64,000 nucleotides of DNA from Micromonospora sp. AMSO31t. Its GTDB lineage: Bacteria > Actinomycetota > Actinomycetes > Mycobacteriales > Micromonosporaceae. Made by a program: the position numbers and the translations under genes. The notes beneath the pieces are model-generated. The model ran no database searches, was not told where the DNA came from, and saw only the letters and a list, made by a program, of their open reading frames with translations. The stretch covers positions 1 through 64,000 of the forward strand of contig NZ_WBKT01000001.1 in NCBI RefSeq assembly GCF_008868175.1, written 5' to 3'. Of this stretch, positions 27,836 through 49,504 are shown one piece after another. Positions within the stretch are counted from its first letter, which is position 1. Each line of letters starts with the position of its first letter.

Positions 27836-28084
27836 GGCCGGCTCTCCTTCCGAAGGGTGCGAGCACCGCCAGCTTCGCAGACCCGGCGAGCGCCTCGAGA
27901 GGGTGGCTGGCGGTGGCCGCCGCCCCGACCGTTCGCCGCAGGTCAGGCACCGCTCGCCGCAGTGGATCGACCGTTCCCGGCCACTGTGCCGTCGCTCAGC
28001 TCGCGGCCATGACCAGCGAGAACTACAGTCGGCTGGAGCACCACCGGATAGATCGCGACAGATATCACGGTGAGGAGCGAGTCG

Positions 28085-29668
<1,584 letters not shown>

Positions 29669-29697
29669 CCGACGACCGACGCGACGTGGAGGTGGCC

Positions 29698-33838: not shown

Positions 33839-33894
33839 CGGCGAGATCCACCGTCACCGCTGACCCCCGTCCCCCCACAGCGTCGAGGTGACCC

Positions 33895-35778
33895 ATGTTC
33901 GACCAGTTCACCGTCGTCACCGATCCCGTCGGCGACTCCGTCGCGCTCTCGGCCATCTTCGCGGTCCTACCCCTGCTCACCCTCTTCGTCCTGCTCGGCG
34001 TCCTGAAGGTCAGGGCCTGGCTGGCCGGCGTGATCTCCCTCGTGGTCGCCCTGGTCGTGGCCATCGCCGTCTACGCCATGCCGATCGGGCAGGCCGTGCT
34101 CTCCGCCACCGAGGGCGCCGCCTTCGGCTTCTTCCCGATCCTCTGGATCGTCATCAACGCGATCTGGGTCTACAACCTCACCGTCGAGAGCGGACACTTC
34201 GACGTGCTGCGCCGCTCCTTCGAACGGGTCAGCCCGGACATGCGTATCCAGGCGATCATCATCGCGTTCTGCTTCGGTGCGCTGCTGGAGGCCCTCGCGG
34301 GGTTCGGCACGCCGGTGGCGATCACCGTGGTGATGCTGATGGCGCTCGGGTTCCGCCCCATCCACGCCGCCTCGGTGTCGCTGCTGGCCAACACCGCGCC
34401 GGTGGCCTTCGGCGCGCTCGCCACCCCGATCGTCACGCTGGCCAGCGTCAGCAGTGGCGCCAACCCCGACCCGCGGCTCACCGTCGACACCCTCGGCGCG
34501 ATGGTCGGCCGGCAGACCCCGATCCTCGCGGTGGTCGTACCGCTGATGCTGGTGGCCCTGGTCGACGGGCGGCGCGGCGTCCGCCAGACCTGGCCGGCCG
34601 CGCTGGTCGCCGGGGTGAGCTTCGGCCTGGCGCAGTTCGTCGCGGCGAACTACATCTCGGTGCCGCTGACCGACATCGTCGCCGCGCTGGTCTCGGCCGC
34701 CGCCGTGGTGCTGCTGGTCCGCGTCTGGCGGCCGGTCACCCCCGCCGACCTCGGCCGCGAGCCGGAGGCCGCCGCCGTGCCGGCCGCCCGCGGGGCAGCC
34801 GACGCGGAACTGGCCGGCCCCGGCACGGTCCGCGCCGCCGCGGGCGCCCGCTCCGATACGACCAGCACAGCCGCCCCCGGACTGGGCGGTTCCGGTGGGG
34901 AGACCCCGCCGGGTGATCCGCGCGTCGACGAGACCGCTCCCGCCGGCCGGCACCGCGGCGACCACGACCTGGAGCCGCGGCCCACCGACCAGGTGCGCGC
35001 CGCCACGGCGGGCGGTCGACGGATCGCGGACACCCCGGCCGAGGTCGCCCGGGCGTACGCGCCCTACCTGATCATCATCGCGATCTTCTCCGTCGCCAAC
35101 GTCGGCGCGGTGAAGACGGCCCTGGCGGAGGAGCCGTGGACGGTGAAGTTCCCCTGGCCGGGGCTGGACCTCCTGGGCGGCAACGGCAAGCCGCTGTCCT
35201 CGCTGACGTTCACCTTCAACTGGCTGCCCGCGGCCGGCACCCTGATGATCCTCGCCGGCATCCTGACCGCGCTGGTGCTGCGGGTCTCGGCGGGCCGGGC
35301 GCTGCGCGCCTACGGCCGCACCTACGTCGAGCTGCGCTACGCGATCCTCACGGTGATGGCGGTGCTCGCCCTGGCGTACGTGATGAACCAGTCCGGCCAG
35401 ACCAACACCCTCGGCGCGTTCCTCGCCGCGGCCGGCGGGGCGTTCGTGTTCCTGTCGGCGATCCTCGGCTGGATCGGCGTCGCGGTGACCGGCTCGGACA
35501 CCTCGGCCAACGCCCTGTTCGGCGCGCTGCAGGTGCAGACGGCGGCCCGGGCCGGGCTGGACCCGCTGCTGCTGGCCGCCGCCAACTCGTCCGGCGGAGT
35601 GCTCGGCAAGATGATCAGCCCGCAGAACCTGGCGATCGCCGCCGCCGCTGTCGGCATGGCCGGCCGGGAGGGGGAGATCTTCCGGAAGGTGTTCGGCTGG
35701 AGCCTCGTGCTGCTGCTGTTCATGTGCGTGCTGGTCGCGCTCCAGGGCTCCCCGGTCCTGAGCTGGATGGTGCCCTGA
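33895..35778 (+). CDS. LctP/GlcA-family lactate/glycolate permease
   Basis: The 627-residue protein has about 13 hydrophobic helices and family motifs FGALLEALAGFGTPVAITV, TAPVAFGALATPIVTLASV, TGSDTSANALFGALQVQTAA and NSSGGVLGKMISPQNLAIAA. It moves lactate or glycolate with protons. Being last in a glycolate operon, it most likely imports glycolate. It is ~75-90 residues longer than usual because a hydrophilic Pro/Gly/Arg/Asp-rich segment at ~285-380 (GSGGETPPGDPRVDETAP) is inserted in a cytoplasmic loop. The RBS GAGGTG lies just before ATG 33895. Confidence 0.87.
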   Translation: MFDQFTVVTDPVGDSVALSAIFAVLPLLTLFVLLGVLKVRAWLAGVISLVVALVVAIAVYAMPIGQAVLSATEGAAFGFFPILWIVINAIWVYNLTVESGHFDVLRRSFERVSPDMRIQAIIIAFCFGALLEALAGFGTPVAITVVMLMALGFRPIHAASVSLLANTAPVAFGALATPIVTLASVSSGANPDPRLTVDTLGAMVGRQTPILAVVVPLMLVALVDGRRGVRQTWPAALVAGVSFGLAQFVAANYISVPLTDIVAALVSAAAVVLLVRVWRPVTPADLGREPEAAAVPAARGAADAELAGPGTVRAAAGARSDTTSTAAPGLGGSGGETPPGDPRVDETAPAGRHRGDHDLEPRPTDQVRAATAGGRRIADTPAEVARAYAPYLIIIAIFSVANVGAVKTALAEEPWTVKFPWPGLDLLGGNGKPLSSLTFTFNWLPAAGTLMILAGILTALVLRVSAGRALRAYGRTYVELRYAILTVMAVLALAYVMNQSGQTNTLGAFLAAAGGAFVFLSAILGWIGVAVTGSDTSANALFGALQVQTAARAGLDPLLLAAANSSGGVLGKMISPQNLAIAAAAVGMAGREGEIFRKVFGWSLVLLLFMCVLVALQGSPVLSWMVP

Positions 35779-35862: not shown

Positions 35863-38505
35863 TCAGCTCCCCGGCAGGCGGAGGACCTTGGCGTCGGCCC
35901 AGTCCGCGTGGTCGCTGTTGTTCGTGTTGCCGGCGTCCGTGACCCGCAGCACGAGCCGCTCGACACCGAGGACATCGAGTTCGACGCGCTGCGGTGGCGA
36001 GTACGGCTGCGCGCGCATGAGGCCGCTGTCGTACACGACCTTGCCGTCGGCGAGCACCTGGAAGACGACCGAGGCGTTGGGCGAGGTGCGCTGCACGTCG
36101 TCGATGCCGACGATCGCGACGAACCTCGTGTCCGTCGGTTCGAGGTCATAGACGACCTCCGAGTTCGCGTGGGTGCCGATGCCCTTGGCGTACTCGGTGC
36201 CGGCGAGGCGGATCGGGTTCCCCGACACGGCCCGGTCCTTCAGCACCGAGCGCCACCCGGCCGTCGCCGAGACCCAGTCACGGTCGCTGAGGTGTTCGGC
36301 CGGGCCGTCGGCGGGCGTCGCCTGCTCCTCGACGATGGTGCCCGGCCCCTCGCCGATCTCATTCGTCGAGGTCACCCGGTACCGGTAGGGTCCGCCGGCC
36401 GCCTCGCGATCCAGGAAGGAACTGCCGGTCTGCCCGGTCGCGAGGGTCGTGAAGTCGTCGCTCCCGGCCGGGGCGCGGTAGACCGTCGACGTCAGCGCGT
36501 CCTCGGCCGCCGTCCAGGTGACGCCGACGGCGTCACCGACGCGGTACGCGGCCACCGGGGTCGGCGCTTCCGGCACGGCGGCGGGCACGGTGCGGAACCG
36601 CCACTCCCCGCCGGGGACCACGAGTTCCTGTCCGGTCTTCGGGTTCACGGCCGTGACCTCCCAGTAGAAGGTCCGCCCGGCATCGAGGGAGGCGATCCTC
36701 GCGGTGGGCTTCGTGACCGTGGCCTCGGCGACGACGTCGGTCATCGCGGCGTCGCGAGCGACCCGCAGACGGTACTCCCGCGCGTTGGCCGCGGGCTCCC
36801 AGGCGAAGGTCACACCCTTGGCGGGCACGCCCGTCGCACCGTCGGCCGGCGAGAGCAGCGCGTAGTCCTGCGGGTGGGTGAGGATGAGGTCGCCGTGCCG
36901 GTTCGGGTTCACGTCACCGCTCGTGGTGACGGTGATCGACGCGCCGACGGGAACCGTCAGCGTGACCTGGGTGAGGGCCCGCCCGTTCACGTGCACGTAC
37001 TCGGGCTTCACGGGTTTGCCGTCGACCTTCAGCTTCGGCCAGCCGCCGGGGAACTGCACGGTGACCTCGAGCGGTTGCGGTCCGGCGTTGTGGTTGACGA
37101 CCGTCTTCGTGGTGCCGTCGTGGCGGACGCCGAAGTCGTGCTCGCCCACACGGATGTGGTCGAGGTCGAGCCATCCGATCTCCGCGGGCAGGTGCGAGCG
37201 GACCGACACCGCGTGCTCGGGCGCGTCGGGCCGGACCCCGGCGAGTCCCTCGACGGTCTGCGACACGAGCGTGAAGCTCGTCTCGGGGTAGTCGCCGTTC
37301 GTGCCCTGCGTGGGCACCTCGTGCGGAAGGTGGAGCTTGGCGATGATGTCCTTCATCCAGGTCCACGCCTGCTCGTCGAAGCCGTAGTTGAACATCGCGT
37401 CGGGCACGTACGTCGTCGCCTCGATGTTCGGCGGCCGGTCCTCGACGTACATGCGGTCGAGGTACCCGAGGAAGTCCCACGTGCGCTTGTCGTTGGCGTC
37501 GATGAACTCCTTGACCGCGTAGAAGACGGAGTTCTCGCGGCCGAAGCCGGCGTACGGCTCGTTCGCCGGCCCGCGACCCCGCACGTACTCCCAGCTGCCC
37601 CGGACGACGCCCCACTCGTCCTCGAAGTACCGCTTGAGCGCCGCGGCCTTCTGCTCGAAGGTCGCCGCCGTTCCGAGATCGCCCTTCTCCCGGGCGAGGT
37701 ACGCGTAGGCGAGGTACGCCCGGTACTGGGAGGCGAGCCCGTCGCCGGCTTCGATCACGGCGTGGTCGCCACGTTCGTTGTAGCTCGCGGCGCCCTGGAA
37801 GATGCCCCGGCCGGTGCCCTCGGCGATGCCGTTGGGCAGCTGCGTGTCGTGGAGCGAGACGAAGTCGGTGACCGCCTCGGTGTAGTACCGCCAGAGCACG
37901 GGGTCGTCGAGGTAGTCGGCGTCGCCGGTCCAGCGGTACTGCTCCTCGGCCTCCTGCACGAGTTCGAAGACCGCGGGCACCTCGCGCACGAAGTTCGTGT
38001 CGCTGCGATAGTCCACGTTGTAGGGGCTGCCGTCGAAGTTCAAAGCCCAGAGCGGATACCACTTGCGCGCCTCGTTCGCGCTCGCCGCGAAGGCGGTGAG
38101 CATCGACTTGTTCTCCTCCTCGAGGCCGAGTAGGTGGCCGCCCGCGGCCTGGTGGACGAAGTCCCGGGAGTAGAAGGCGGTGCGGTGGGCGTAGCCCGCC
38201 CAGTACGACGGGATGTAGTCGGCCTCGCCGGTGCCGGGGTTGCTGCCGTTTCCGTTCACCGGGCCGCGCTTGCCGGTCTGCACGTGCTGCCGTGCGCGCG
38301 ACATGGCCCAGTTGACGGCGTCGGTGAGCTGCGGCGACGAACTCGCGACCGTGATGGGTCCCCGGTCGAGCCCGGCCGTGGTGTCCGGAGCCGCGGCGCG
38401 GGCCGAGGTGGCGAGCGGCGCGAGCAGCAGTGCCGCGACCGCGGCGACGGCCGTGCCGATGGTGCTCCGCCGCGACGGCGGACTGCCGGGTGATGGTGTG
38501 CGCAT
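35863..38505 (-). CDS. Secreted (alpha/alpha)6-type glycoside hydrolase with FN3-like and NPCBM domains
   Basis: The protein has 880 residues. A signal peptide (~1-36, AVAAVAALLLAPLATSARAA) leads into a large helical domain (~40-500) with YIPSYWAGYAHRTAFYSRDF, RDF and LW motifs, RYYTEAVTDFVSLHDTQLP and VRGSWEYVRGRGPANEPYAG. This six-hairpin-like architecture is seen in several inverting GH families. Beta-sandwich and FN3-like modules follow (~530-720) and then a C-terminal NPCBM domain (~735-880, YAKGIGTHANSEVVYDL, RLVLRVTDAGNTNNSDHADW) that binds galactose-type sugars. I cannot name the GH family. ATG 38503-38505 follows GAGGAGG at 5 bp. Neighbouring GH97, GH29-like and GH36 genes suggest a shared branched polymer. 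Confidence 0.65.
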   Translation of the reverse strand: MRTPSPGSPPSRRSTIGTAVAAVAALLLAPLATSARAAAPDTTAGLDRGPITVASSSPQLTDAVNWAMSRARQHVQTGKRGPVNGNGSNPGTGEADYIPSYWAGYAHRTAFYSRDFVHQAAGGHLLGLEEENKSMLTAFAASANEARKWYPLWALNFDGSPYNVDYRSDTNFVREVPAVFELVQEAEEQYRWTGDADYLDDPVLWRYYTEAVTDFVSLHDTQLPNGIAEGTGRGIFQGAASYNERGDHAVIEAGDGLASQYRAYLAYAYLAREKGDLGTAATFEQKAAALKRYFEDEWGVVRGSWEYVRGRGPANEPYAGFGRENSVFYAVKEFIDANDKRTWDFLGYLDRMYVEDRPPNIEATTYVPDAMFNYGFDEQAWTWMKDIIAKLHLPHEVPTQGTNGDYPETSFTLVSQTVEGLAGVRPDAPEHAVSVRSHLPAEIGWLDLDHIRVGEHDFGVRHDGTTKTVVNHNAGPQPLEVTVQFPGGWPKLKVDGKPVKPEYVHVNGRALTQVTLTVPVGASITVTTSGDVNPNRHGDLILTHPQDYALLSPADGATGVPAKGVTFAWEPAANAREYRLRVARDAAMTDVVAEATVTKPTARIASLDAGRTFYWEVTAVNPKTGQELVVPGGEWRFRTVPAAVPEAPTPVAAYRVGDAVGVTWTAAEDALTSTVYRAPAGSDDFTTLATGQTGSSFLDREAAGGPYRYRVTSTNEIGEGPGTIVEEQATPADGPAEHLSDRDWVSATAGWRSVLKDRAVSGNPIRLAGTEYAKGIGTHANSEVVYDLEPTDTRFVAIVGIDDVQRTSPNASVVFQVLADGKVVYDSGLMRAQPYSPPQRVELDVLGVERLVLRVTDAGNTNNSDHADWADAKVLRLPGS

Positions 38506-38555
38506 CGCATCCTCCTCGGAAAGGGGACTGGCTCGAACGGTCGAACGAGGCGCGC

Positions 38556-38586
38556 GCGATGCCGGGCCGCGCGGGCCCGGCATCGC
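38556..38586 (-). terminator. Hairpin after the GH97 gene
   Basis: A perfect 13-bp stem (GCGATGCCGGGCC / GGCCCGGCATCGC) with a 5-nt loop lies 17 bp beyond the stop of the minus-strand GH97 gene. It precedes the next minus-strand gene, which then needs its own promoter. Confidence 0.65.
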
Positions 38587-38602
38587 ACGCTGACGTGGAC
38601 GG

Positions 38603-40534
38603 CTACGGTCGGTCGCAGGTGGTGATCTTCGGTTGCCACCGGCAGGCCAGGCCGGCGAAACCGCCGTCGGCGACCACGTCGACGGGCAGCGTGTCACCGG
38701 CCCGCATGACCCGCTGGCTGCGTACGAGCCCGCTGTCCCCGTCGGTGATCAGTTCCACCAGCCACCGTCCGGCCGGCAGGTTCAGCGGTACGTCCAGGGT
38801 CCGGGCGGCGCCGGCGGAACTCCCGCCCAGGAACCAGCGCTCTCCGCTGCGCCGCGCGAAGACGGCGCTGTCGGCGGGACGGCCGGCGAGGAGCCTGGTC
38901 TCGTCCCAGACGGTCGGCACCTGTTCGAGGAACCGCACCGCCTCCGGCCGCGCCTCGTACGACTCCGGCGTGCCGGCGAGGTCCTGCAGGCCGGACTCGA
39001 AGACGACCGAGAGCCCCAACTCGTGGGCGTCGGAGGTCGGCCGGTTCCGGTGGAACCCCATCGGTGTGTAGTCCATCGACCCGACCACGTTACGGGTGAA
39101 GGGGAGGGCGGTGATGTGGCTCGTGGTGAGGCTGCTCTTCTCGGCGCCGTGGACGCCTTCCATGGTCATGACGTGGGGCCAGACCCGGTGGATGCCCTTC
39201 GGGACGTTCGAGCCGTGGAAGTTCACCAGCAGCTGGTTCGCGGCTGTCGCGGGCAGGATCTCGTCGTACCACCGCAGCCGCTCCTGCGACTCGGAGTCCA
39301 TGAAGTCGATCTTGACGCCCTTGACGCCCCATGCATGCAGCGTCGGCAGCCACTCGGACCGCTCCTGCGCGGTGTCGAGGTCCCGGTAGTGGATCCAGAC
39401 GACGATGCCGACGTTGCGTTCCCGGGCGTAGCGGACGAGTTCCGGCATCCAGCTCGTGGTGCGCCAGTTCGGGTCGGTGACGTCCCACTGCTGCGGATCG
39501 AAGTACCAACCGGCGTCGACGGCGACGTACGGCCAGCCCCGCTGGGCGGCATAGTCGACGTAGCCCATCTGCTTGGTGAGGCTCTGCCCGGCGGCCCGCC
39601 CGCCGGCGAGCCAGGTCCAGAGAACCTGGCCGGGGCGGATCCACGAGGTGTCGCTGATCCGCGACGGCGGCGCCAGGTCGTCGACGAGCGTCGAGGTGGC
39701 GATCGTGCCGAGATCGCCGACGACCATCACCCGCCACGGCGTCGCCAACGGCCCGTCGACCAGGACTTTCTGGTCCCACAGCTTCACCCGGTAGGTGCCG
39801 GTGCCGTCATGCACCAGGCTGCCGCCGGAGTACCGGCCGTCGAGGTTGGACTCGGCGATCATCAGGTAGGTGCCGTCGACGTCGAACAGCGCCGGGGCGA
39901 GATACTCCCGGTCGTCCGCGGCGGCGGCGGTGGTCTGGACGTACGGGTTCTCGTAGTCCCGGCGGTGGTTCGCCAGCCAGGCCGTGCTGTCGGGGGGAAC
40001 CGTGAACGCGGACGCCTCGCCGAGCACCGACCCGTAGTCGCCGGGCAGTTCGTACCGGTAGGCGATCCCGTCGCGGGCGGCCCGGACGACAAGGTCGACC
40101 CGGGCGCCAGCCGCGCCGGCGAACCGGAACCGTGCCTCCCGGAAGATCGCGAGCCGCCGCACCTGCTTCCCGACGGTCGTCGTGTAGCGCTCGACGTCGG
40201 TGCGGTCGCTGCGGCCGAGGAACCGTAGTCCGCCGGTCAGGTCGGCGCCCTCGGTGCGGATGCCCAGCGTGCTGGGCGCCAGTACGGTCCGCCCACCGCG
40301 GGACACGGCCAACGAGATGCTGCCCGTCGCCTTGTCGTGAATGACCTCCGCCCTCGGGGCGCCCGGCGCGGAGGCCGCCGCGACGGTCCATCGGGCGGTG
40401 CCCGCCTGAGCGGGTGTCGCCGTGAGAGTTCCGGCGAGCAGCGTGGCGATCAGGGCGACCGCGAGGGCCGCGATCCGGGGGGTCGGGCGGGCGGCGGTAG
40501 CCCGCCGCGCCGACCAATCTGGTGTGTGCTGCAC
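38603..40534 (-). CDS. Secreted GH97-family glycosidase (retaining, alpha-galactosidase-like)
   Basis: The protein has 643 residues including a signal peptide (~1-45, ALAVALIATLLAGTLTATPA). The N-terminal beta-sandwich of GH97 (IAYRYELPGDYGS, LANHRRDYENPYVQT) is followed by a (beta/alpha)8 barrel (YVAVDAGWYFDPQQWDV, VGIVVWIHYRDLDTAQER) and a C-terminal sheet domain. Asp410 in VKGVKIDFMDSE occupies the nucleophile site of retaining GH97 enzymes. Inverting alpha-glucosidases of the family lack it, so alpha-galactosidase or beta-L-arabinopyranosidase activity is more likely. The start is GTG 40532-40534 with GAGGAGG upstream. Hairpins on both sides indicate a single-gene transcript. Confidence 0.78.
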   Translation of the reverse strand: MQHTPDWSARRATAARPTPRIAALAVALIATLLAGTLTATPAQAGTARWTVAAASAPGAPRAEVIHDKATGSISLAVSRGGRTVLAPSTLGIRTEGADLTGGLRFLGRSDRTDVERYTTTVGKQVRRLAIFREARFRFAGAAGARVDLVVRAARDGIAYRYELPGDYGSVLGEASAFTVPPDSTAWLANHRRDYENPYVQTTAAAADDREYLAPALFDVDGTYLMIAESNLDGRYSGGSLVHDGTGTYRVKLWDQKVLVDGPLATPWRVMVVGDLGTIATSTLVDDLAPPSRISDTSWIRPGQVLWTWLAGGRAAGQSLTKQMGYVDYAAQRGWPYVAVDAGWYFDPQQWDVTDPNWRTTSWMPELVRYARERNVGIVVWIHYRDLDTAQERSEWLPTLHAWGVKGVKIDFMDSESQERLRWYDEILPATAANQLLVNFHGSNVPKGIHRVWPHVMTMEGVHGAEKSSLTTSHITALPFTRNVVGSMDYTPMGFHRNRPTSDAHELGLSVVFESGLQDLAGTPESYEARPEAVRFLEQVPTVWDETRLLAGRPADSAVFARRSGERWFLGGSSAGAARTLDVPLNLPAGRWLVELITDGDSGLVRSQRVMRAGDTLPVDVVADGGFAGLACRWQPKITTCDRP

Positions 40535-40593
40535 AGGTGACTCCTCCTCGAATGTGGTGGGGAGACCGGTGGTCGGCGCGGGTGAGCGCCTCA

Positions 40594-40638
40594 GTCGATG
40601 CCCTGCTCGCGCACGACCTGGCGGAGCAGGGCATCGAC
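40594..40638 (-). terminator. 15-bp hairpin after the GH29-like gene
   Basis: The perfect arms GTCGATGCCCTGCTC and GAGCAGGGCATCGAC flank a 15-nt loop. It lies 24 bp beyond the stop of the minus-strand GH29-like gene and ~60 bp before the GH97 start, so it should separate the two transcripts. Confidence 0.6.
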
Positions 40639-40662
40639 GGCGGGTGGGTGCCGCGGGGAGGG

Positions 40663-43611
40663 TCAGCCCAGCGACAGCCGGTCGAGGTCCGGTGCGGAAT
40701 CCTCGTCGTTGTGAATCTTGAGGGTGTTGGCGCCCGCCTGAAGGGTGACGGGGACCGAGGTCGTGTAGGGCGTGTTGTTACCGACGCCGCTCACCTTGAC
40801 CTCGACGGGCGTACCGCCGTTGACGGTCACGAAGAACGACCGGTCACCGTTGACCGTGAAGTCGATGAACAGGGTGTACTGGCGAGCCGTGTCAACGGTG
40901 ACGTTCTCGAACAGCACGTAGGCGTCCGAGCTGCCGCCGATGTTGCGCACCTTCTGTCCGCCGGAGCAGGGTGAGCAGCTCGTGATGCCGGAACTGCCGA
41001 GCTGGTTGCCCGAGTCCTCCGCCTCGCGCATGAACACCCGGTCCGCCGGGCGCAGTTGCACCCGCAGGTCGCGGCTGACCTGGTTCGGCCTGCCGAGCGT
41101 CTCGAACGACGCCACGACCGGGATCTTCGCCGAGCTGACGTCCTGGCCGGCCGGCGAGGTGACGGTCCAGCTGCCCTCCAGAACCTGTCCGAGGCGCATC
41201 TCCCTCGACGTCGCGGCGCCGCCGGTGACCGACCAGCCGGCGGGAACCACCGGGGCCATGCTGACCTGGTCGAGTGCGTCGTCGACGTCAAGCCGCAGCC
41301 GCGCCGTGACGGTGACCGACTGCTGCCCCGGGCCGACCCACTGCACACCGGCGGGCTCCACGGTCATCGTGGTCCGCGGCACGGAAGACGCCGGTGGCAG
41401 GGGTCCGACGGAGATCCGGTCGATTCCCGGGCCCCGGGCAGTCGAACTGAACAGGGTGATGGTGTTGGCGCCGGCCCGCAGCGGCACGGCGACCGCCGAG
41501 GCGACGGGCACCTCCGGATTGTCCGCGACGACCGGCACGTCCACGCCGGTCGCGCCGTTGACGCTCACCGTGAGCGAGGCGTCGGCGCCGCCGGCGGTGT
41601 GGTCGACCTGCAGCCGGTAGGTACCCGCCTCCGGTGCGGCGACGCCTTGGTAGGTGACCGAGTTGCGGGCGCCGCCTCCGAGCCCGACGACCTGGTGCGA
41701 CCCGGAGCAGGCGACGCACTTCGCCGGCTTCGCCTTGCCGTCGAGCGCGTTGCTCCGCGACTCCGCCTCCAGCGGCAGTTGGGTGCCCGCCGCCCCCGGA
41801 TAGTCGTAGGCCACCTTGACCTCGTCGATCCGCAGCTGGCGGTAGAACGTCGGCGCCTGCGGGCCGCCCCAGGTGTTCAGGACCTCCAGCTTGATGAATC
41901 GGGCGCGCTGGTCGCCGATGTCGACGAACTGGACCCCACGGGCGCTGGGCATCGCGCCGCTGCGCACCGGCTGCCCCCAGCGCACGCCGTCCTTGCTGAC
42001 GTAGACGCGGTAGTCCTTGATCCGCGCCGAGTCCTCCGGCCGGCCGAACGACTCCCGGGCGTACGTCGGCGACCACTCCCGCTGGTTCACCGCGAGGTAC
42101 CTCGCCTTGCGGGTGTCTCCGAGGTCCAGCGTCAGCGAGACCGGCAGCTGCCCGTTGCTGTCCCAGTAGTTCTCGAAGCTTCCGTCCACCAGGGCGGCGG
42201 CGGGGTGGCCAGCGCCGGAGGAGGACGCGGACGCCTTGATCATCGACTGGGGGTAGAAGAACTGCTGGCCAGCCGTGCTCACCTGGAACACCGTGTCGTA
42301 GGTGTCCCAGGTGTCGATGCCGAGGATCGTCAGGTACCCGCCGGACTGGTTGAACCGCATCCGCTCGCCGGTCCTCAGGTCATTCACCCCGGTCACCCGG
42401 TAGCCGTTGTCGCGCAACCGCACCTGGTCCGTCCGCGGCCGGGTCAGCACGTGCACGTACTGGGTCGTCGCACCGGGTTTCACGGTGATGACACCGTGAG
42501 CCCCGTCGTTCCAGAAGCCGGGCTGCATGCCGCCGTACAGGTAGCCACCGCCCTCGGTGCCGACCAGCGAGGACCGGATCGGCGGCACCCACTCGGCCAT
42601 GAAGTTGTTGAACGACTCCTGCTGTGCGGGGAACTTGCCGTTCACCATCGGTGTCTCCGCCATGAGCGACTTCATGGACGATCCGGCGTTGGTGATGTAG
42701 CGACCGGTGCTGAGCCGGACGTCGACGGCGTGGTCGCCGCCGTCGTACCACCAGGAGCCGGTCGTCGGCAGCTTGTAGTCCGCCTCGCTGAGGCGTGGCA
42801 TGGGGGTGAAGGCGGCCTGCGGATAGTCGTAGGCCGGCGTCATGCCGGTCTTCTGCTCATTGCTGACGGTGTCCATGATCGGCGTGTCCTCGTTGTTGTT
42901 GCTCAACAACCAGGACGGGCGCTTCTCCCGGATCTGTTCGTAGAGGTGGTTCCGCTCCCAGTAGGCGTTGTCGTTGTCGATCCAGAACCCGCCCAGGTCG
43001 GTGTACTTCTCCATCACCTCGAAGAACAGGTCGTAGCTGAACATGCCGAAACCGTCGCGGGTGGTCAGGTCGACCTGCTGGCCCTTGTACGCCGAGTAGG
43101 CCGCCGAGTCCAGCGTCTCGACGCCGAGCTCGTTGTGCCACTGGGGGTCGTCGGTCATGTAGAGGATGACCCGGACCCCCTTGGCCTTGCCGGCCTCGAT
43201 GAGCTCGCCGAGGATGTCGCGCTCGGTGGCGCAGCTGCCGGGGATCTTCGACGGCCAGGGGCGGGCGTAGCCGAGCCGGCTGTGGAAGGTGGCCAGGACG
43301 ATGTAGGAGGCACCGAGCTTGCGGGCCTCGTCCACCCAGTAGTCCGGGGTCCAGCCGCCCTCGGTGACGTCGTCCTCCCACTCCGCGCAGTCGCGGTGGG
43401 CCGGGGCGGTGAACATTCCCCAGTGCAGGAACAGGCCGGCCGTGGATTCACGCATCCACTGTTGTCGCGGATGCTGGACCTCCGCGTGGGCGGCGGGGGC
43501 GCCGATGAGCCCCGCGGTCAGGACGAGGACGAGCGCGGCGCCCAGCAGGCGCCACCTGCTCCACGCCCGCTCGGATCGTGGTCGGGTACCGCCGTGCGGT
43601 CGAAGTCTCAT
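40663..43611 (-). CDS. Secreted GH29-like (alpha-L-fucosidase family) multi-domain enzyme
   Basis: The protein has 982 residues with a signal peptide (~1-43, LLGAALVLVLTAGLIGAPAA). The catalytic barrel begins TAGLFLHWGMFTAPAHRDCA, comparable to the GIFIHWG motif of GH29, with SYIVLATFHSRLGYARPWPS in place of the usual KHHDGF region. LGGFWIDNDNAYWERN covers the expected nucleophile Asp region. An F5/8C-type domain follows (~480-630), then two CBM35/CBM6-like domains (~640-740 and ~880-980, each with a CSxCSG-type pair: CVACSG, CSPCSG) and a NEW3-like domain between them. Fucosidase activity fits the nearby L-fucose pathway, but the KHHDGF-type region is divergent. Confidence 0.65.
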   Translation of the reverse strand: MRLRPHGGTRPRSERAWSRWRLLGAALVLVLTAGLIGAPAAHAEVQHPRQQWMRESTAGLFLHWGMFTAPAHRDCAEWEDDVTEGGWTPDYWVDEARKLGASYIVLATFHSRLGYARPWPSKIPGSCATERDILGELIEAGKAKGVRVILYMTDDPQWHNELGVETLDSAAYSAYKGQQVDLTTRDGFGMFSYDLFFEVMEKYTDLGGFWIDNDNAYWERNHLYEQIREKRPSWLLSNNNEDTPIMDTVSNEQKTGMTPAYDYPQAAFTPMPRLSEADYKLPTTGSWWYDGGDHAVDVRLSTGRYITNAGSSMKSLMAETPMVNGKFPAQQESFNNFMAEWVPPIRSSLVGTEGGGYLYGGMQPGFWNDGAHGVITVKPGATTQYVHVLTRPRTDQVRLRDNGYRVTGVNDLRTGERMRFNQSGGYLTILGIDTWDTYDTVFQVSTAGQQFFYPQSMIKASASSSGAGHPAAALVDGSFENYWDSNGQLPVSLTLDLGDTRKARYLAVNQREWSPTYARESFGRPEDSARIKDYRVYVSKDGVRWGQPVRSGAMPSARGVQFVDIGDQRARFIKLEVLNTWGGPQAPTFYRQLRIDEVKVAYDYPGAAGTQLPLEAESRSNALDGKAKPAKCVACSGSHQVVGLGGGARNSVTYQGVAAPEAGTYRLQVDHTAGGADASLTVSVNGATGVDVPVVADNPEVPVASAVAVPLRAGANTITLFSSTARGPGIDRISVGPLPPASSVPRTTMTVEPAGVQWVGPGQQSVTVTARLRLDVDDALDQVSMAPVVPAGWSVTGGAATSREMRLGQVLEGSWTVTSPAGQDVSSAKIPVVASFETLGRPNQVSRDLRVQLRPADRVFMREAEDSGNQLGSSGITSCSPCSGGQKVRNIGGSSDAYVLFENVTVDTARQYTLFIDFTVNGDRSFFVTVNGGTPVEVKVSGVGNNTPYTTSVPVTLQAGANTLKIHNDEDSAPDLDRLSLG

Positions 43612-43672
43612 GGGGACATCGCCTCTCGATGGTCTGTGTGGTCAGGGGTTACATCGAGGTTTCGAATGAAGA

Positions 43673-43681
43673 CATCCGATG
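43673..43681. promoter_or_regulatory. Candidate operator CATCCGATG
   Basis: This is a 9-bp palindrome with one central base, ~60 bp upstream of the GH29-like start codon. Related copies stand at 43850, 46113 (partial) and 46179 (partial) around the genes of the putative fucose system. Confidence 0.4.
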
Positions 43682-43849
43682 ATTGCAACTGCCATCGGCG
43701 ATGGTCAAGACCTCGGTTGGTCCGCCGGACGGCGCGACGACCATCGTCGCGGGCAAATAGCCCCGGACGATGAGGGGCGTGGCCAGGCTGTTCCGGCATC
43801 GGGCTGGTGCGATGACGAGTCATCCGAGCACTGCCGGCCGGACCGTCAT

Positions 43850-43860
43850 TCATCGGATGA
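43850..43860. promoter_or_regulatory. Candidate operator TCATCGGATGA (perfect palindrome)
   Basis: An 11-bp perfect palindrome around a central G lies ~240 bp before the GH29-like start and shortly after the GH36 stop. It shares the CATC-S-GATG core with the site at 43673. The binding protein is unknown. Confidence 0.4.
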
Positions 43861-43893
43861 CCAGCGCTGGTCGCGCTGGTGGAAGCCGGCTGC

Positions 43894-45999
43894 CTAGTCG
43901 ACGCGGACGAGGTGGACGACCGCGCTGGCGTAGTCCCCGGACGGCAACTGCGGGCGCAGTCCGTGGCCCAGCAGCACGGCGCCGTGCTGCACCTCGCCGG
44001 TCGCCTCGTCACGGTAACGGGCGGCCGGGTCCAGCCCCCGCAGCCGCACGGGCGCCGCCTCGCGGCCGAAGCACGGCGCGGGGAGCCAGAAGAAGACGAC
44101 GGATTCGGTGCCGTCAACCGCGACGTACTGGGTCGCGGACAGGCCGTCGGACGGCGGCAGCAGCCGATAGACGTCCCCGTGCTGCACCACCGGTCGGATC
44201 CGCTTGTACTGCGCCACCAGGAGCCGAGCCTCCGCCAGCTCCTCGTCGGCCCACTCCGGCAGGTTGCCGCCGATGGCCAGCACGCCGGCCATGGCCACGT
44301 GGAAGCGGAACCGCAGCGGCACGGTCCGCCCGGTCAAGAAGTTCGGTACGTCAGTCACCCAGGCGGCCATGGTGACCGTGGGATAGATCTGGCCATAGCC
44401 GTGCTGGACCGACAACCGGTCCCGGGCGTCGGTGTTGTCCGACGGCCAGACCTCGTCCGTGCGGCGAAGGATGCCCAGGTCGACCCGGCCGCCGCCGCCC
44501 GAACACGTCTGGATCCGCAGGTGCGGGTGATCGGCGCGAAGGCGGTCCAGGACCCCGTACAGGTTCTCGACGTAGCGCACCCAGAGCCGGTCCGGATCGT
44601 CACCGCCGTCCGGCCAGCCGGCCTCGGTGAACGGTCGGTTCATGTCCCACTTCAGGAAGTCGACGTCGTTGCCGCCGACGAGTTCGTCCAGCCAGCCGTG
44701 CGCCCACTCCGCCACATCCGGCCTGGCGAAGTTGAGCACCAGCTGGTGGCGCAGCTCGGTACGGTGCCGGTTGCGCATGTGCAGGACCCAGTCCGGGCGC
44801 GCCCGGTGCAGATCGCTGTCCGGGTTCACCATCTCCGGCTCGACCCAGATGCCGAACCTCATGCCCAGCCGGTGCACCTCGGCCGCCAGCGGGGCCAGCC
44901 CGTTCGGGAATCGGTCCCGGTTCACCGTCCAGTCGCCCAGACCGGCGCGGTCGTCGACCCGGGCGCCGAACCAGCCGTCGTCCATCACGAACAACTCCGC
45001 TCCCAGCTCGGCCGCCTGGGCGGCGAGCCGCCGCTGACCGGGCTCGTCGACCGTGAACCCGGTCGCCTCCCAGGAGTTGTAGGTCACCGGTCGTAACTCC
45101 TGTGGGTGCGGCAGAACGTGCCCACGCACGTAGCGATGCCAGACCCGGCTGGTCGCCCCGTAACCGCCGACGCCGTAGAGACCGGCGAACACTGGCGTCT
45201 CCCGCCGCTCGCCCGGCGCCAGCCGCCAGGAGACGCCCTCATGGCCGGCCCCACCGGTCACGCAGACGACATCGGTCGGGGTACGGCTCAGGGTGATCCG
45301 CCACGTGCCGCTCCACGCCAGGGCGCCGCTGAAGACCTCACCGTGTTCCTCGCTCGCGTCGCCGGCGTCGATGGTGAACCAGGGGTTGGCGTGGTGGCCG
45401 GTGGTCCCGCGCCGGCTTGTCAGCACCGTCTCGCCGCGGGCGAGGTCGACCCGTTCCACCTGGCTCTCCCCGCCCCAGTGGCCGGTCACATGGCGTACGA
45501 CGTAGCCCGCGCGGGCTGGGACCGGCCAGGTCGCCGAGTCGGCCCGCAGCACCTCGACCGGCACGTCGCCGGTATTCGCCAGCGACGTCCACCGCTCGAC
45601 GACGTCGCTGTCCGGATACACGCGGTAGTGGAGGCTGACCTCGAACGGGTAGTGCCGGTCGACCAGCCGGATCGACAGCGTGTCGGCGTTGCGTTCCTGG
45701 CCGGCGAAGGCGAGCTCCAGGCCCCGCGTGCCGTCGGCGAACCGTACCTGGAGCGCGGGCACACCGAACCGGGCCCCACCCTCGACCGGGAACTCCTCGA
45801 TGTCGTACACCCGGCCCTCGAACTGGGTCAACGTGGCGGGACGCGGCGCCGGCACGGTGCTCGCCTGGGCCAGCGTCAGCCGCGGTCCCCAGTAGAGGTG
45901 GCGCAACACACCGTCATCACCCAGGCGCAACGCGTACCCGGTACCGGGGGTGGAGAGCAGCCAGGTCCGGGTCGCGGCGTCGAACTCAACTCCAGGCAT
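43894..45999 (-). CDS. GH36-family alpha-galactosidase (cytoplasmic)
   Basis: From ATG 45997-45999 the protein has 701 residues, the usual GH36 size. The open frame extends upstream but without similarity. The N-terminal beta-sandwich (AFAGQERNADTLSIRLVDRH) is followed by the catalytic barrel: VTYNSWEATGFTVDEPGQ, ELFVMDDGWFGARVDDRAGL, FGIWVEPEMVNPDSDL, nucleophile Asp452 in DFLKWDMNRPFTE, CSGGGGRVDLGILRRTDEVW and acid/base Asp521 in WPSDNTDARDR. It releases alpha-linked galactose from oligosaccharides. No signal peptide is seen, so it works inside the cell, probably on sugars brought in by the divergent ABC importer (46252-49424). Confidence 0.88.
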   Translation of the reverse strand: MPGVEFDAATRTWLLSTPGTGYALRLGDDGVLRHLYWGPRLTLAQASTVPAPRPATLTQFEGRVYDIEEFPVEGGARFGVPALQVRFADGTRGLELAFAGQERNADTLSIRLVDRHYPFEVSLHYRVYPDSDVVERWTSLANTGDVPVEVLRADSATWPVPARAGYVVRHVTGHWGGESQVERVDLARGETVLTSRRGTTGHHANPWFTIDAGDASEEHGEVFSGALAWSGTWRITLSRTPTDVVCVTGGAGHEGVSWRLAPGERRETPVFAGLYGVGGYGATSRVWHRYVRGHVLPHPQELRPVTYNSWEATGFTVDEPGQRRLAAQAAELGAELFVMDDGWFGARVDDRAGLGDWTVNRDRFPNGLAPLAAEVHRLGMRFGIWVEPEMVNPDSDLHRARPDWVLHMRNRHRTELRHQLVLNFARPDVAEWAHGWLDELVGGNDVDFLKWDMNRPFTEAGWPDGGDDPDRLWVRYVENLYGVLDRLRADHPHLRIQTCSGGGGRVDLGILRRTDEVWPSDNTDARDRLSVQHGYGQIYPTVTMAAWVTDVPNFLTGRTVPLRFRFHVAMAGVLAIGGNLPEWADEELAEARLLVAQYKRIRPVVQHGDVYRLLPPSDGLSATQYVAVDGTESVVFFWLPAPCFGREAAPVRLRGLDPAARYRDEATGEVQHGAVLLGHGLRPQLPSGDYASAVVHLVRVD

Positions 46000-46160
46000 C
46001 CGCGAAGCGTACGACCCGGCGGTCGATGGCTCGGTGCCGCGGGCATGGGCATTCGGCACCGGTCCAAACGGGCGAAGTCGCTCGAATCCAAGGAATGCCG
46101 CGAACCGGGCAGTCATCCGATCGATCCGGGGAGGGATGACGCCTTTTCCGGCTTCGGGCG

Positions 46161-46190
46161 TTGACACTCCGCCCAAAGATCGGATGTACT
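46161..46190 (+). promoter_or_regulatory. Promoter of the sugar importer with overlapping operator half
   Basis: TTGACA (46161-46166) and TGTACT (46185-46190, 4 of 6 consensus) are 18 bp apart. GATCGGATG (46179-46187), a relative of the CATCSGATG palindrome, covers the end of the spacer and the start of the -10. Another partial copy, TCATCCGATCGATC, lies at 46112-46125. Transcription would start ~50 bp before the binding-protein gene. Confidence 0.5.
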
Positions 46191-46251: not shown

Positions 46252-47541
46252 ATGCGGAACAAGCCCCGAGCATTCCGGGTGGCGGCCGCACTCGCGGCCG
46301 TCGTAGCCCTCAGCGCCTGCACGGTCGGTGACAACTCGTCCACCGTGGACGGCAAGCAGGAGGTCACCTTCCTGACCTTCGAGACGCCGAACCTCACCCC
46401 CGGGTACTGGGATGCCGCGATCAAGCGGGTGACCGCCAAGAATCCGGACATCACCGTCAAGAAGCTGGTGGCCCCGACCGCGGACGGTCGGACGGCGTAC
46501 GCCAAGCAGCTGCTGCAGTCGGGCCAGTTCCCGGACGTCATGATCGCGGTGTCCCCGGCCGGGTTCGCCGAGGCCGGAAATCTCTACGCGTGGCAGCCGG
46601 ACGAGCTGAAGGACTTCCTCTATCCGACGGCGAACCCGATCAACGGGAAGTACTACCAGCTCCCGGCCAACACCCAGACCATCCCGCCGATCTACTACAA
46701 CAAGAAGATGTTCGCCGACGCCGGCGTCACCGCGACCCCGAAGACCTGGGCCGAGCTGCTCGACGCGTCGGCGAAGCTGAAGGCGAAGGGGATGACGCCG
46801 TTCGTCATCGGCGGTGGCAAGGACGGCTTCGCCTCGTCGATGATCCTGTCCGGCCTCGTGAGTGTCGACCTGTACGCGAAGACGCCGGACTGGCTGACCA
46901 AGCGACGGTCGAACCAGGCGAAGTTCGCCGACCCCGACTTCGAGAAGGCCCTGGGCAAGTTCGCCGACCTGGCCGCCAAGGGCTACCTCGACAAGTCGGC
47001 GGTCTCCCGGGACTACGCGGCCACAGAACAGGCGTTCCTGGACGGCAAGGGCGCGATGTATCCGATGGGAAACTGGTTCGCGGCGAACGCCGACACCAAG
47101 AAGCCCGGCTTCGAGATCGGCGTGTTCAACGTCCCGACCGAGGACGGCACGGTCGTGGCGCCCGCCTACACCGGCGGCGGCATGATCGTCAGCGCGAAGG
47201 CCAAAAACCTCGACGCGGCCAAGAAGTTCGCGCTGGCGTTCCAGCTCGACAAGGAGCAGCTCGACGCGTCCGTCAAGGCCGACGGACTCTTCCCCGCGAT
47301 CAAGGGCTACACACTGCCCTCCGACGTGGGTCCGGTGTTCAAGGCGGGATACGAGCTCTACCAGCAGGCGCAGGCCCAGGAGGCCGTCGTGCACGCATTC
47401 CGCTGGGAGACGGCCGACGACGGACTGCTGCCCGGAATGGCCGACAAGGTCGACGCGGCCGCACAGGACCTGATCACCGGACGCAGGACGCCCGCCCAGG
47501 CGGCCGCCTTCCTCGACACGGAATGGTCGAAGGCCGGCTGA
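46252..47541 (+). CDS. Sugar-binding lipoprotein, extracellular family 1
   Basis: The protein has 429 residues. A lipoprotein signal ends AALAAVVALSAC, with Cys ~23 as the lipid site. The type 2 binding fold of the maltose/oligosaccharide class follows: YWDAAIKRVTAKNPDITVKK, QFPDVMIAVSPAGFAEAGNL, YQLPANTQTIPPIYYNKKMF and GAMYPMGNWFAANADTKKPG. These proteins usually bind oligosaccharides, so the importer may bring in galactosylated or fucosylated fragments. GAGAGG precedes ATG 46252. It is divergent from the GH36 alpha-galactosidase and precedes two permease genes. No ATPase is present, so a shared MsiK-like ATPase elsewhere is probably used. Confidence 0.88.
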   Translation: MRNKPRAFRVAAALAAVVALSACTVGDNSSTVDGKQEVTFLTFETPNLTPGYWDAAIKRVTAKNPDITVKKLVAPTADGRTAYAKQLLQSGQFPDVMIAVSPAGFAEAGNLYAWQPDELKDFLYPTANPINGKYYQLPANTQTIPPIYYNKKMFADAGVTATPKTWAELLDASAKLKAKGMTPFVIGGGKDGFASSMILSGLVSVDLYAKTPDWLTKRRSNQAKFADPDFEKALGKFADLAAKGYLDKSAVSRDYAATEQAFLDGKGAMYPMGNWFAANADTKKPGFEIGVFNVPTEDGTVVAPAYTGGGMIVSAKAKNLDAAKKFALAFQLDKEQLDASVKADGLFPAIKGYTLPSDVGPVFKAGYELYQQAQAQEAVVHAFRWETADDGLLPGMADKVDAAAQDLITGRRTPAQAAAFLDTEWSKAG

Positions 47542-47560: not shown

Positions 47561-47591
47561 GGGTGTGGAGAGCGCCTCGCTCTCCACACCC
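47561..47591 (+). terminator. 13-bp hairpin between binding-protein and permease genes
   Basis: The perfect arms GGGTGTGGAGAGC and GCTCTCCACACCC flank a 5-nt loop 19 bp after the binding-protein stop. It is probably a partial terminator or an mRNA-stabilising stem that keeps the binding protein in excess over the permeases. Confidence 0.6.
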
Positions 47592-47649
47592 CCGCGGTCG
47601 CACCGAGGCCGGCGACGGTCGACCGGTAGGAACGGAAGGAGTAGGCGCC

Positions 47650-48597
47650 ATGGTTGCCCAGGTCGCTAGGCCTGCCACACGGCCCGCACCGGAGGAGACG
47701 ACAAGAACCCGGCGACGACGGCCCCTGGGGCCGGCCCTCGGGCACTTCGCATCGTTCGCCGCGCCGGGGGTGCTGATCTACGCCTGCTTCGTCCTGGCGC
47801 CGATCCTGGTCAGCCTCGGCTACAGCCTGACCAACTACAACCCGTTCAACCCGCCGACGAGGTACGTGGGACTGGACAACTACCAGCTGTTGCTGCGCGA
47901 CGACCAGTTCCTCACGGCGCTGCGGGTGACGAGCATCCTCACCGTGATCGTGGTGATCGTGCCGAACGTGCTCGGGCTGGCGGTCGCGCTGCTGCTCGAC
48001 CGGCACGGATGGCTCTACAACGCCCTGCGCAGCGTCTTCTTCACCCCGGTCATCCTGAGCTCCGTGGTCGTGAGCGTCATCTGGTCGCGCCTGCTGGACA
48101 GCGAAGGACCGCTCAACGAGGCGCTGAGGGCCCTCGGGGTCGACCAGCCCCCCGGCTGGCTCTCCGATCCGGCCGTCGCCCTGTACTCGGTGGCGTCGAT
48201 CATCAGCTGGCAGATGCTCGGCTTCTGCGTCGTGGTCTACCTCGCCGGCCTCCAGGGTGTGCCCGTCGAGCTGCAGGAGGCCGCCGCCATCGACGGCGCC
48301 GGCCCGGTCCGCCGGTTCCGCGCCGTCACCTGGCCGATGCTGGCGCCCGCCCTGACCGTCAACACCGTCGTCCTGCTGATCTCGGCGTTCAAGGCATACG
48401 ACTACATCAAGGTGATCACCAACGGTGGGCCGGGATCCGGCACCACCGCCACCATCGCCTTCAACGTGCTCCAGACCGGCTTCGACGCCAACCACGGTGG
48501 CTACGCCTCCGCCATGGCGATCCTGATGTTGCTCATCGTCGCGGTCGTGACCGCGATCGCGCTGAGGTTCCTGCAGCGCCGGGAGGTGGACCTGTGA
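47650..48597 (+). CDS. Sugar ABC transporter permease (MalF-type)
   Basis: The protein has 315 residues with six predicted membrane helices after a basic N-terminal tail of ~35 residues. The MalF-type coupling loop EAA motif is present as VELQEAAAIDGAGPVRRFRA then VTWPMLAPAL. Other family marks are YSLTNYNPFNPPTRYVGLDN and VNTVVLLISAFKAYDYIKVI. A strong ribosome site (GGAAGGAG) precedes ATG 47650. It is coupled to the next permease through a GTGA overlap. Confidence 0.9.
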   Translation: MVAQVARPATRPAPEETTRTRRRRPLGPALGHFASFAAPGVLIYACFVLAPILVSLGYSLTNYNPFNPPTRYVGLDNYQLLLRDDQFLTALRVTSILTVIVVIVPNVLGLAVALLLDRHGWLYNALRSVFFTPVILSSVVVSVIWSRLLDSEGPLNEALRALGVDQPPGWLSDPAVALYSVASIISWQMLGFCVVVYLAGLQGVPVELQEAAAIDGAGPVRRFRAVTWPMLAPALTVNTVVLLISAFKAYDYIKVITNGGPGSGTTATIAFNVLQTGFDANHGGYASAMAILMLLIVAVVTAIALRFLQRREVDL

Positions 48598-49424
48598 AAC
48601 ATGGCAAACCGTCGTGGCTGCGCCCCGGGGTCGCGATCACGCTCGCCGCGGTCTTCTTCGTGCCGCTGTACTTCGTCCTGGCGAACGTCTTCAAACCCGG
48701 TGACCTGATCGCCAAGCAACCCGCCAAGCTTCCGCTGCCGCCCACACTGGCCAACATCGAGGCGGTGCTCACCCGACCGGACCGCCTGTTCTGGGTCAGC
48801 CTCACCAACAGCATCGTCGTCACCCTCCTGTCGGTGCTGGTGCTCATCGTGCTCTCCGCGATGCTCGGCCACTACCTCGCCCGCACCCGCAATCGGTGGA
48901 CGCGGGCACTGACCCTGCTCCTGCTGTGCGGGCTCATGATCCCGCCGCAGGTGATCCTCATACCGATCACCGACGTGCTGCGGTTCACCCACCTGATGGC
49001 GACACTGCAGGGTCTGGTGCTGTTCAACGTCGGCTACTACGTACCGTTCGGCATCTTCGTCTTCATGGGCTTCATCCGCGCCGTACCGGTCGAACTCGAA
49101 GAGGCGGCACGCATCGACGGTGCGAGTCGGATGCAGGTCTTCTGGCGGGTCGTCTTCCCGTTGCTGCGCCCCGCGACCGCGAGCGTCGTCATCTTCCTCA
49201 GCGTGTGGATCTGGAACGACTTCATCAATCCGCTGATCATTCTCGGCCCGAGCCAGGGGACCACGATCACCACCGGCATCTACCGCTCGATCGGGCAGTA
49301 CCAGGCGGATTTCGGCAGCCTCTTCGCGCTGATGTTCCTGGCCACGCTGCCCGTGCTGATCTTCTACCTGGCTCTCCAACGACAGTTCGTCAAAGGCCTG
49401 ACCGGAGGCGCCACCAAGGGATAG
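48594..49424 (+). CDS. Sugar ABC transporter permease (MalG-type)
   Basis: The protein has 276 residues and six helices. The start is GTG 48594, which overlaps the preceding stop (GTGA). The EAA loop reads VPVELEEAARIDGASRMQVF then WRVVFPLLRPAT. FFVPLYFVLANVFKPGDLIA at the N-terminus and VWIWNDFINPLIILGPSQGT near the end are typical of MalG-type permeases. It pairs with the MalF-type protein. The ATPase must come from elsewhere. The genes of the L-fucose pathway begin 80 bp downstream with their own possible control site. Confidence 0.9.
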   Translation: MKHGKPSWLRPGVAITLAAVFFVPLYFVLANVFKPGDLIAKQPAKLPLPPTLANIEAVLTRPDRLFWVSLTNSIVVTLLSVLVLIVLSAMLGHYLARTRNRWTRALTLLLLCGLMIPPQVILIPITDVLRFTHLMATLQGLVLFNVGYYVPFGIFVFMGFIRAVPVELEEAARIDGASRMQVFWRVVFPLLRPATASVVIFLSVWIWNDFINPLIILGPSQGTTITTGIYRSIGQYQADFGSLFALMFLATLPVLIFYLALQRQFVKGLTGGATKG

Positions 49425-49486: not shown

Positions 49487-49504
49487 GGATTCTGGGGGCG
49501 ACGC

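Follow-up and report, generated by a model that had tools for sequence, protein, structure and literature searches.

Among the described systems closest to the locus considered here, the melibiose operon melR-melA-melB combines a regulator with a cytoplasmic alpha-galactosidase of glycoside hydrolase (GH) family 4 (MelA) and a transporter (MelB). Further points of comparison are the GH78 alpha-L-rhamnosidases, built from an (alpha/alpha)6 barrel and a C-terminal beta-sandwich, the retaining GH97 alpha-galactosidases with solved structures 3a24 and 5e1q, the GH36 enzymes AgaA and AgaB, and the GH29 alpha-L-fucosidases and exo-alpha-L-galactosidases, whose canonical active-site signature is KHHDGF. 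In published work, alpha-galactosidases are assigned to families GH4, 27, 31, 36, 57, 97 and 110 (PMC7939477). The present analysis concerns a 64,000-nucleotide stretch of the 6.36-Mb genome of Micromonospora sp. AMSO31t (contig NZ_WBKT01000001.1, positions 1 to 64,000; hereafter the window), in which four glycosidase genes, here termed E1 to E4, lie consecutively on the minus strand from 35863 to about 46005, divergent from a fucose-type gene cluster that begins at 46252. We consider it rather probable that these genes are induced by fucose and jointly serve the use of a glycan in which alpha-D-galactose occurs together with alpha-L-fucose or a sugar like it; E1 very probably serves the use of alpha-galactosides. 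The locus shares with the melibiose operon the pairing of a cytoplasmic alpha-galactosidase with a transporter (E4 and an ATP-binding cassette (ABC) transporter), but differs from it in having GH36 and GH97 enzymes, an ABC system, an extra GH29-type enzyme and a fucose-cluster operator. Open reading frames and Pfam agree with the initial annotation, which had described four diverse glycosidases in a row on one strand beside an L-fucose pathway. The glycosidase genes and the hairpins between them are as follows.

35863-38505, minus strand: E1, 880 residues from the ATG at 38505, predicted (alpha/alpha)6 enzyme, with an N-terminal hydrophobic stretch of signal-peptide type
36886-38412, minus strand: E1 catalytic domain (residues 32-540), helical barrel followed by a beta-sandwich
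35884-36294, minus strand: C-terminal NPCBM domain of E1 (Pfam, 5.8e-44)
38506-38602, minus strand: E2/E1 intergenic hairpin, terminator- or attenuator-like
38603-40534, minus strand: E2, GH97 by Pfam, nearest to retaining alpha-galactosidases
40535-40662, minus strand: E3/E2 intergenic hairpin
40663-43611, minus strand: E3, GH29-type by Pfam, 982 residues, with an F5/8 domain and two CBM35/CBM6-like modules
43894-46005, minus strand: E4, GH36 alpha-galactosidase by Pfam, without a signal-like start and hence presumably cytoplasmic; the start at about 46005 was chosen by us, the longest frame extending to 46236

E1 had been reported as an 880-residue enzyme that could not be placed in a known family, and searches of Pfam, NCBIfam and PDB sequences bear this out. 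No Pfam or NCBIfam family matched its first ~530 residues; outside the NPCBM domain, the presence of which was likewise confirmed, a sub-threshold Fip1 match was the sole Pfam match at E <= 0.1, and a profile of 47 E1-type sequences gave chance matches only against PDB sequences. The Pfam models of GH78 did not match E1 at E <= 0.1, nor its catalytic part at E <= 10, and a single one of the 47 relatives matched GH78 (E 0.041). PF22422, a mannosylglycerate hydrolase-like (MGH1-like) family, was weakly detected in six of the 47 (best 9.1e-6) and did not match the E1 of the window. The AlphaFold model (mean predicted local distance difference test (pLDDT) score 90.4, predicted template modelling score (pTM) 0.91) consists of an (alpha/alpha)6 barrel and a beta-sandwich, as the initial annotation had proposed. 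Its top Foldseek match was 8iwf (E 3e-12), and in a structural aligner the alpha-rhamnosidases 3cih, 8iwd, 8iwf and 8hmm were tied at Z 29-30 with 10-13% identity (3cih: Z 30.0, root-mean-square deviation 3.1, 408 residues), the alpha-rhamnosidases as a group covering Z 28-30 over about 400 residues, followed by an amylo-alpha-1,6-glucosidase at Z 27.3. E1 has the fold of GH78 enzymes but differs from them in its low identity, the lack of a GH78 Pfam match and its alpha-galactosidase neighbours.

The residues R114-D115, E244, E252, D255, E324, E362 and E408 are invariant in the 47 aligned sequences, which comprise the window's E1, that of stretch L002 and 45 of the 79 loci described below (L086 was dropped for a stop, the others mainly as near duplicates); numbering follows the 880-residue protein and equals the alignment number plus 31, so that E408 is 377 in the alignment piece. 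In a profile comparison with two amylo-1,6-glucosidase-like proteins (95% probability, 223 columns), E408 alone among these residues was paired with an invariant glutamate, that of the LPE motif, which is the catalytic base position in such enzymes. Both proteins came from the weak phylum-search matches L032-L035, of which that in L034 looks like chance. Given the fold matches and the pairing of E408, E1 is therefore predicted to be a glycosidase of the (alpha/alpha)6 superfamily that lies outside the families tested here; most likely it is exo-acting and probably inverting, with E408 in the place of the catalytic base.

The gene company of E1 relatives suggests what the enzyme is used for. 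In a sample of 200 genomes of the order, the E1 catalytic domain was found in the source genome and one other; in 396 genomes of the phylum it was strong in the source genome only, with four weak local matches, and within the genus it occurred in three of 160 members, plus a 50-residue fragment in another. A two-sequence profile scan of the contigs of 84,980 species located E1 loci in Actinomycetota, Bacillota, Pseudomonadota and Bacteroidota, and the family counts given here refer to the 79 best loci among its 105 stretches. An alpha-galactosidase-type gene was present near the E1 relative (within flanks of up to 10 kb) in 57 of the 79 loci: GH36-like in 37, GH4 in 20, GH97 in five and GH27 in one, some loci having two. 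The chance level was gauged from whole genomes. In 14 of them, of 2.7-9.8 Mb and each picked because it has such a neighbour, PF02065 occurs 1-10 times, equivalent to about 0.5-3% per 21.5-kb stretch; GH4 occurs 1-7 times in 10 genomes of 5.0-8.8 Mb. The GH4-bearing loci comprised all 16 from Vibrionaceae and four from Paenibacillus. Every Vibrionaceae locus holds relatives of MelR, MelA and MelB, with the E1 relative directly after melB, and one Vibrionaceae representative of each of the three Mel proteins passes its NCBIfam cut-off. In three Carboxylicivirga loci a GH97 gene lies directly downstream of the E1 relative, as E2 adjoins E1 in the window. Two further arrangements were seen: a Burkholderia plasmid outside the 79-locus set has the order LacI, E1 relative, ABC transporter, GH36, and Streptomyces atratus has the order LacI, alpha-galactosidase, ABC transporter, E1 relative. 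In Paenibacillus L101 the E1 relative is, independently, grouped with GH29-, GH27- and GH95-type genes, and in L045 with GH127-, GH101- and GH95-type genes. A simple score detected a signal-like hydrophobic start in 23 of the 27 loci examined (out of 31); it was absent from L066, L094 and L098 and ambiguous in L050.

Several observations weigh against this picture. By the same test, 22 of the 79 loci have no alpha-galactosidase-type gene; the loci are not independent within clades and amount to about six separate groups; the alpha-galactosidase reference set was picked after inspection of the loci, and many of the GH36-like neighbours score just 34-53 bits on PF02065. The relatives in L094 and L098 look cytoplasmic, and fucose genes are not the usual neighbours of E1 relatives elsewhere. 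Alpha-galactoside use by the E1 family is well supported.

E1-type domains also occur in unusual architectures and surroundings. In L060 (6539-14218) and L072 (9836-17467) the domain lies inside proteins of about 2,550 residues; that of L060 carries two NPCBM domains, six CHB_HEX_C/Fn3 repeats and three SLH domains, and because of this domain set is probably surface-bound. In L101 (2765-19806, Paenibacillus planticolens) the GH29-, GH27-, E1- and GH95-type proteins all have a dockerin domain, and three of the four also a cohesin domain. A secreted-looking protein of 672 residues is encoded near the E1 relative in three Bacteroidota loci (L087 13691-15709, L090 9109-11127 and L113 13625-15643); its L090 copy had no Pfam match and its L087 copy no NCBIfam match. 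A 611-residue hypothetical protein without a Pfam match adjoins the LacI-E1 pair on a Burkholderia pyrrocinia plasmid (L171 8098-9933). Among eight plasmid records matching E1, four name the product 'hypothetical protein', three leave the place unannotated and one names it for the NPCBM domain.

E2 and E4 belong to known alpha-galactosidase types, in line with their first description as a retaining GH97 and a cytoplasmic GH36 enzyme. E2 passes the Pfam cut-offs of the GH97 N-terminal, catalytic and C-terminal domains (215.4, 120.8 and 54.1 bits; best E 1.4e-63), and its nearest solved structures are the retaining alpha-galactosidases 3a24 (189.9 bits) and 5e1q (186.5 bits), alpha-glucosidases scoring 164.4 bits and less. 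D410 (in K-x-DFMD) and E459 (in MEGV) are invariant between E2 and the three Carboxylicivirga GH97 proteins, the same stretches are present in 3a24, and we take these residues to be the catalytic Asp and Glu of the retaining alpha-galactosidase branch, to which E2 is assigned by this pair. E2 differs from the solved members in having ~30% identity to them, and it falls below NF053844, the NCBIfam equivalog for retaining alpha-galactosidases of Bacteroidota (237.2 bits against an 800-bit cut-off). E4 matches Melibiase (361.3 bits, 6.1e-108) and the GH36 N- and C-terminal domains (185.9 and 62.0 bits), and resembles AgaA and AgaB over its whole length (414-426 bits, AgaB being the nearest at 426 bits), with no notable difference.

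E3 is a divergent GH29-type enzyme, as had been claimed. It is well over the cut-off of PF01120 (Alpha_L_fucos; 55.2 bits against 25.2) and shares HWG and WID-type stretches with GH29; in Pfam it also matches CBM35 over two stretches, CBM6 more weakly, and the F5/8 domain. KHHDGF is missing, the corresponding stretch being ATFHSRLGY; in nine aligned E3-type sequences both F-H-S-R-L-G-Y and GFWIDND are invariant. Similarity to all solved members is weak: the best PDB sequence match is the alpha-L-fucosidase 9eu2 (9.6e-8), with exo-alpha-L-galactosidase (7lnp and others, E ~3e-5) also among the matches, and the predicted model of E3 is poor (mean pLDDT 55.1). E3 is the sole PF01120 match of the source genome, in which PF14498, a domain of GH95 proteins, had no match. 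With the GH29-type protein of L101 it shares 20% identity over 140 residues only, and the two were rejected as one subfamily.

The divergent cluster and the operator-like sites near it, scored with a position weight matrix (PWM), comprise the following features.

43672-43682, unstranded: operator-like site ACATCCGATGA, PWM 20.7, best of the window
43850-43860, unstranded: operator-like site TCATCGGATGA, PWM 12.7, ranking third in the window and comparable to the maxima of shuffled windows
46177-46187, unstranded: operator-like site AGATCGGATGT, PWM 19.2, second in the window
46252-47541, plus strand: ABC sugar-binding protein (SBP_bac_1; Pfam)
47563-48597, plus strand: ABC sugar permease 1 (Pfam)
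48594-49424, plus strand: ABC sugar permease 2, a frame inside the open reading frame 48009-49424, with a 98.6% identical partner in Micromonospora sp. MA102
49490-50353 (start approximate), plus strand: FAH-family hydrolase (Pfam)
50350-51732, plus strand: MR_MLE dehydratase, L-fuconate dehydratase candidate (Pfam)
51729-52505, plus strand: SDR dehydrogenase (Pfam)
52641-53840, plus strand: aldo/keto reductase (AKR), L-fucose dehydrogenase candidate (Pfam)
53837-54688, plus strand: amidohydrolase, L-fuconolactonase candidate (Pfam)
54721-55404, plus strand: GntR/FCD regulator, candidate fucose repressor (Pfam)
55483-57683, plus strand: LutA and LutB, lactate oxidation (Pfam)

All five gene types that we presume to make up a non-phosphorylative L-fucose pathway (FAH, MR_MLE, SDR, AKR and amidohydrolase) are thus found in one cluster, named at the Pfam level, and L-lactate is an end product of that pathway. 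The GntR/FCD regulator is kept in six of seven other fucose-cluster stretches, the seventh (L161) ending before that place. On the other side of the glycosidases, a block at 28070-35778, convergent with E1, encodes a malate synthase, two FAD oxidase subunits, an iron-sulphur protein and a transporter of the lactate-permease family. It reads as a glycolate-type operon apparently unrelated to E1; lactate disposal for fucose was considered and rejected, as the malate synthase precedes the FAD-oxidase pair, iron-sulphur protein and permease.

The operator-like motif originated from repeats common to the E3/E4 and E4/transporter gaps. The palindrome recurs in other Micromonospora fucose clusters, before FAH and before their different transporter, and the PWM was built from 18 sites of seven such clusters. 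Because the motif was first taken from the window's own intergenic repeats, the only test of it is its recurrence ahead of fucose genes in those genomes and ahead of E2 in M. costi; the PWM sites themselves were found with a consensus written after viewing both the window and the other genomes. All three top matches of the window fall in the gap between E3 and E4 or in that between E4 and the transporter. Shuffling the window ten times gave maxima of 8.5-18.4, and therefore the first two sites (20.7 and 19.2, above all ten) stand out and the third does not. The string WCATCSGATGW occurs at two places in the whole genome, both in the E3/E4 gap, and MA102 keeps equivalents of the window's sites. 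The 21.5-kb locus of M. costi, whose contig is not that of the fucose cluster, has its best match (18.3) upstream of E2-E1; under a first-order model ~0.0002 such matches are expected in this intergenic gap. On the contrary side, the site at 43850 was equalled or beaten in eight of the ten shuffled windows; the M. costi match is just below the best of the ten 64-kb shuffles (18.4); 344,727 positions of unrelated actinobacterial loci contained one match of at least 18.3 and 15 of at least 12.7; and a loose form of the motif showed no enrichment across the whole window (15 found, 13.5 expected; 16 found, 15.6 expected). No operator-like site precedes E2 or E1 within the window, and the stable hairpins between E3 and E2 (z -5.12) and between E2 and E1 (z -4.45) may uncouple E2 and E1 from E3. 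Taken together, the site pattern gives moderate support to control by fucose of E3, E4 and the transporter at least, and the same operator may control E2-E1 in the source genome. The arm sequence of the E3/E2 hairpin (40535-40662) recurs in the M. costi gap. A separate operator-like site was noticed elsewhere in L168, from the Micromonospora that carries the E1 fragment; this fragment (G687:C1:1791399-1791548, also L151) is a 50-residue stretch 70% identical to E1 and is perhaps a gene remnant.

Natural variation within Micromonospora indicates which parts of the locus belong together. The E1 domain is 96% identical in MA102 and 91% identical in M. costi. MA102 keeps E1, E2 and E3, and its E4 is reduced to scraps, visible between transporter and E3 (L037 4086-4440). 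In M. costi, E1 and E2 are intact and E3 is cut to residues 633-981, the remnant (L044 6495-7541) consisting of C-terminal modules only and preceding the intact E2-E1. Where the window has its CUT1-type ABC transporter and E3/E4, the fucose cluster of M. costi (L161 7629-11027) holds a ribose-type ABC transporter with binding protein, and a GH95 gene (571 bits); a co-loss of E3 and the fucose pathway was rejected, as the pathway is present on another contig than E2-E1. Of 160 genus members, 127 match the MR_MLE protein at 1e-60 or better (paralogues included), and two have a strong match to the catalytic part of E3. Because of these losses and counts, E1-E2 is the stable core, and the fucose link a looser, regulated association.

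This looseness could be taken further, to two modules joined by an accident of insertion, with E1-E2 (and E4) serving a fucose-unrelated alpha-galactoside and E3 with the ABC transporter forming the fucose locus. The separate contigs and truncated E3 of M. costi, the loss of most of E4 in MA102, the E1 loci without fucose genes and the intergenic hairpins would fit it; however, the best operator-like site of the M. costi locus stands directly before E2, its E3 remnant shows that E3-E2-E1 were formerly together there, and L101, from another phylum, has galactosidase and fucosidase company. We regard such an accident as improbable. A different doubt concerns E3, which might be an exo-alpha-L-galactosidase or act on another L-fucose-like sugar rather than be a fucosidase. 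Its PDB matches include the former enzymes, KHHDGF is lost, and around E3 relatives in eight further stretches no fucose-pathway gene was found save one weak GntR match, a result that also weighs against the cluster reading as a whole. By contrast, the best PDB match is a fucosidase, fucose-operator sites precede E3, it is the only PF01120 protein in a genome with the fucose pathway, and in M. costi, which lost the catalytic part of E3, the fucose cluster includes a GH95 gene; a non-fucosidase function of E3 seems to us about as doubtful as the insertion scenario.

A slightly stronger contender, unlikely as we still hold it to be, is that E1 removes a neighbouring sugar such as rhamnose, glucose or uronic acid ahead of the alpha-galactosidases. 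The nearest folds are rhamnosidases and an amylo-alpha-1,6-glucosidase, the profile comparison reaches amylo-1,6-glucosidase-like proteins, PF22422 is detected in a few relatives, and to our knowledge none of the seven listed alpha-galactosidase families has an (alpha/alpha)6 fold. Activity of E1 on the alpha-galactosidic bond would therefore be new. The Vibrionaceae loci argue the other way, as they otherwise hold just the melibiose regulator, alpha-galactosidase and transporter and leave little room for a second sugar apart from the melibiose-type product. The proposal made at the outset, a branched glycan with alpha-galactose and fucose, has accordingly fared unevenly: it agrees with the types of E2 and E4, the company of E1 relatives, the operator sites and L101, but E1 relatives elsewhere mostly do not adjoin fucose genes, and in M. 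costi the E1-E2 pair stands apart from the fucose cluster. These two points leave the alpha-galactoside part of the proposal on firmer ground than the fucose part.

In the favoured reading of a fucose-induced cluster for a galactose- and fucose-containing glycan, E1 and E2, if secreted as expected, would act on the alpha-galactoside part and E3 would take off a fucose-type side group; the ABC transporter would import oligosaccharides, cytoplasmic E4 would cleave alpha-galactosides, and the FAH/MR_MLE/SDR/AKR/amidohydrolase set would consume the fucose. A fungal heterogalactan is described as an alpha-1,6-galactan whose C-2 positions bear alpha-L-fucose and mannose (PMC6432100), and a literature search for bacterial enzymes acting on such heterogalactans found no paper. 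A fungal fucogalactan, an alpha-1,6-galactan with alpha-L-fucose branches, would call for every part of the cluster and may perhaps be the substrate, a specific guess with only a small chance of being right. Slightly better, and tentative all the same, are the prospects of a wider proposal, namely that E1 founds a GH family that reaches at least four phyla and forms part of Vibrionaceae melibiose operons, being the first alpha-galactoside-cleaving (alpha/alpha)6 enzyme and working here with a divergent GH29-type enzyme on a fucosylated alpha-1,6-galactan, e.g., mushroom fucogalactan. If E1 does act on alpha-galactosides, part of alpha-galactoside use has been overlooked, familiar melibiose operons included, and as far as known this would be a new fold for the activity. 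In addition, the operator sites would offer a direct handle on the set of genes that fucose turns on in a soil actinomycete.

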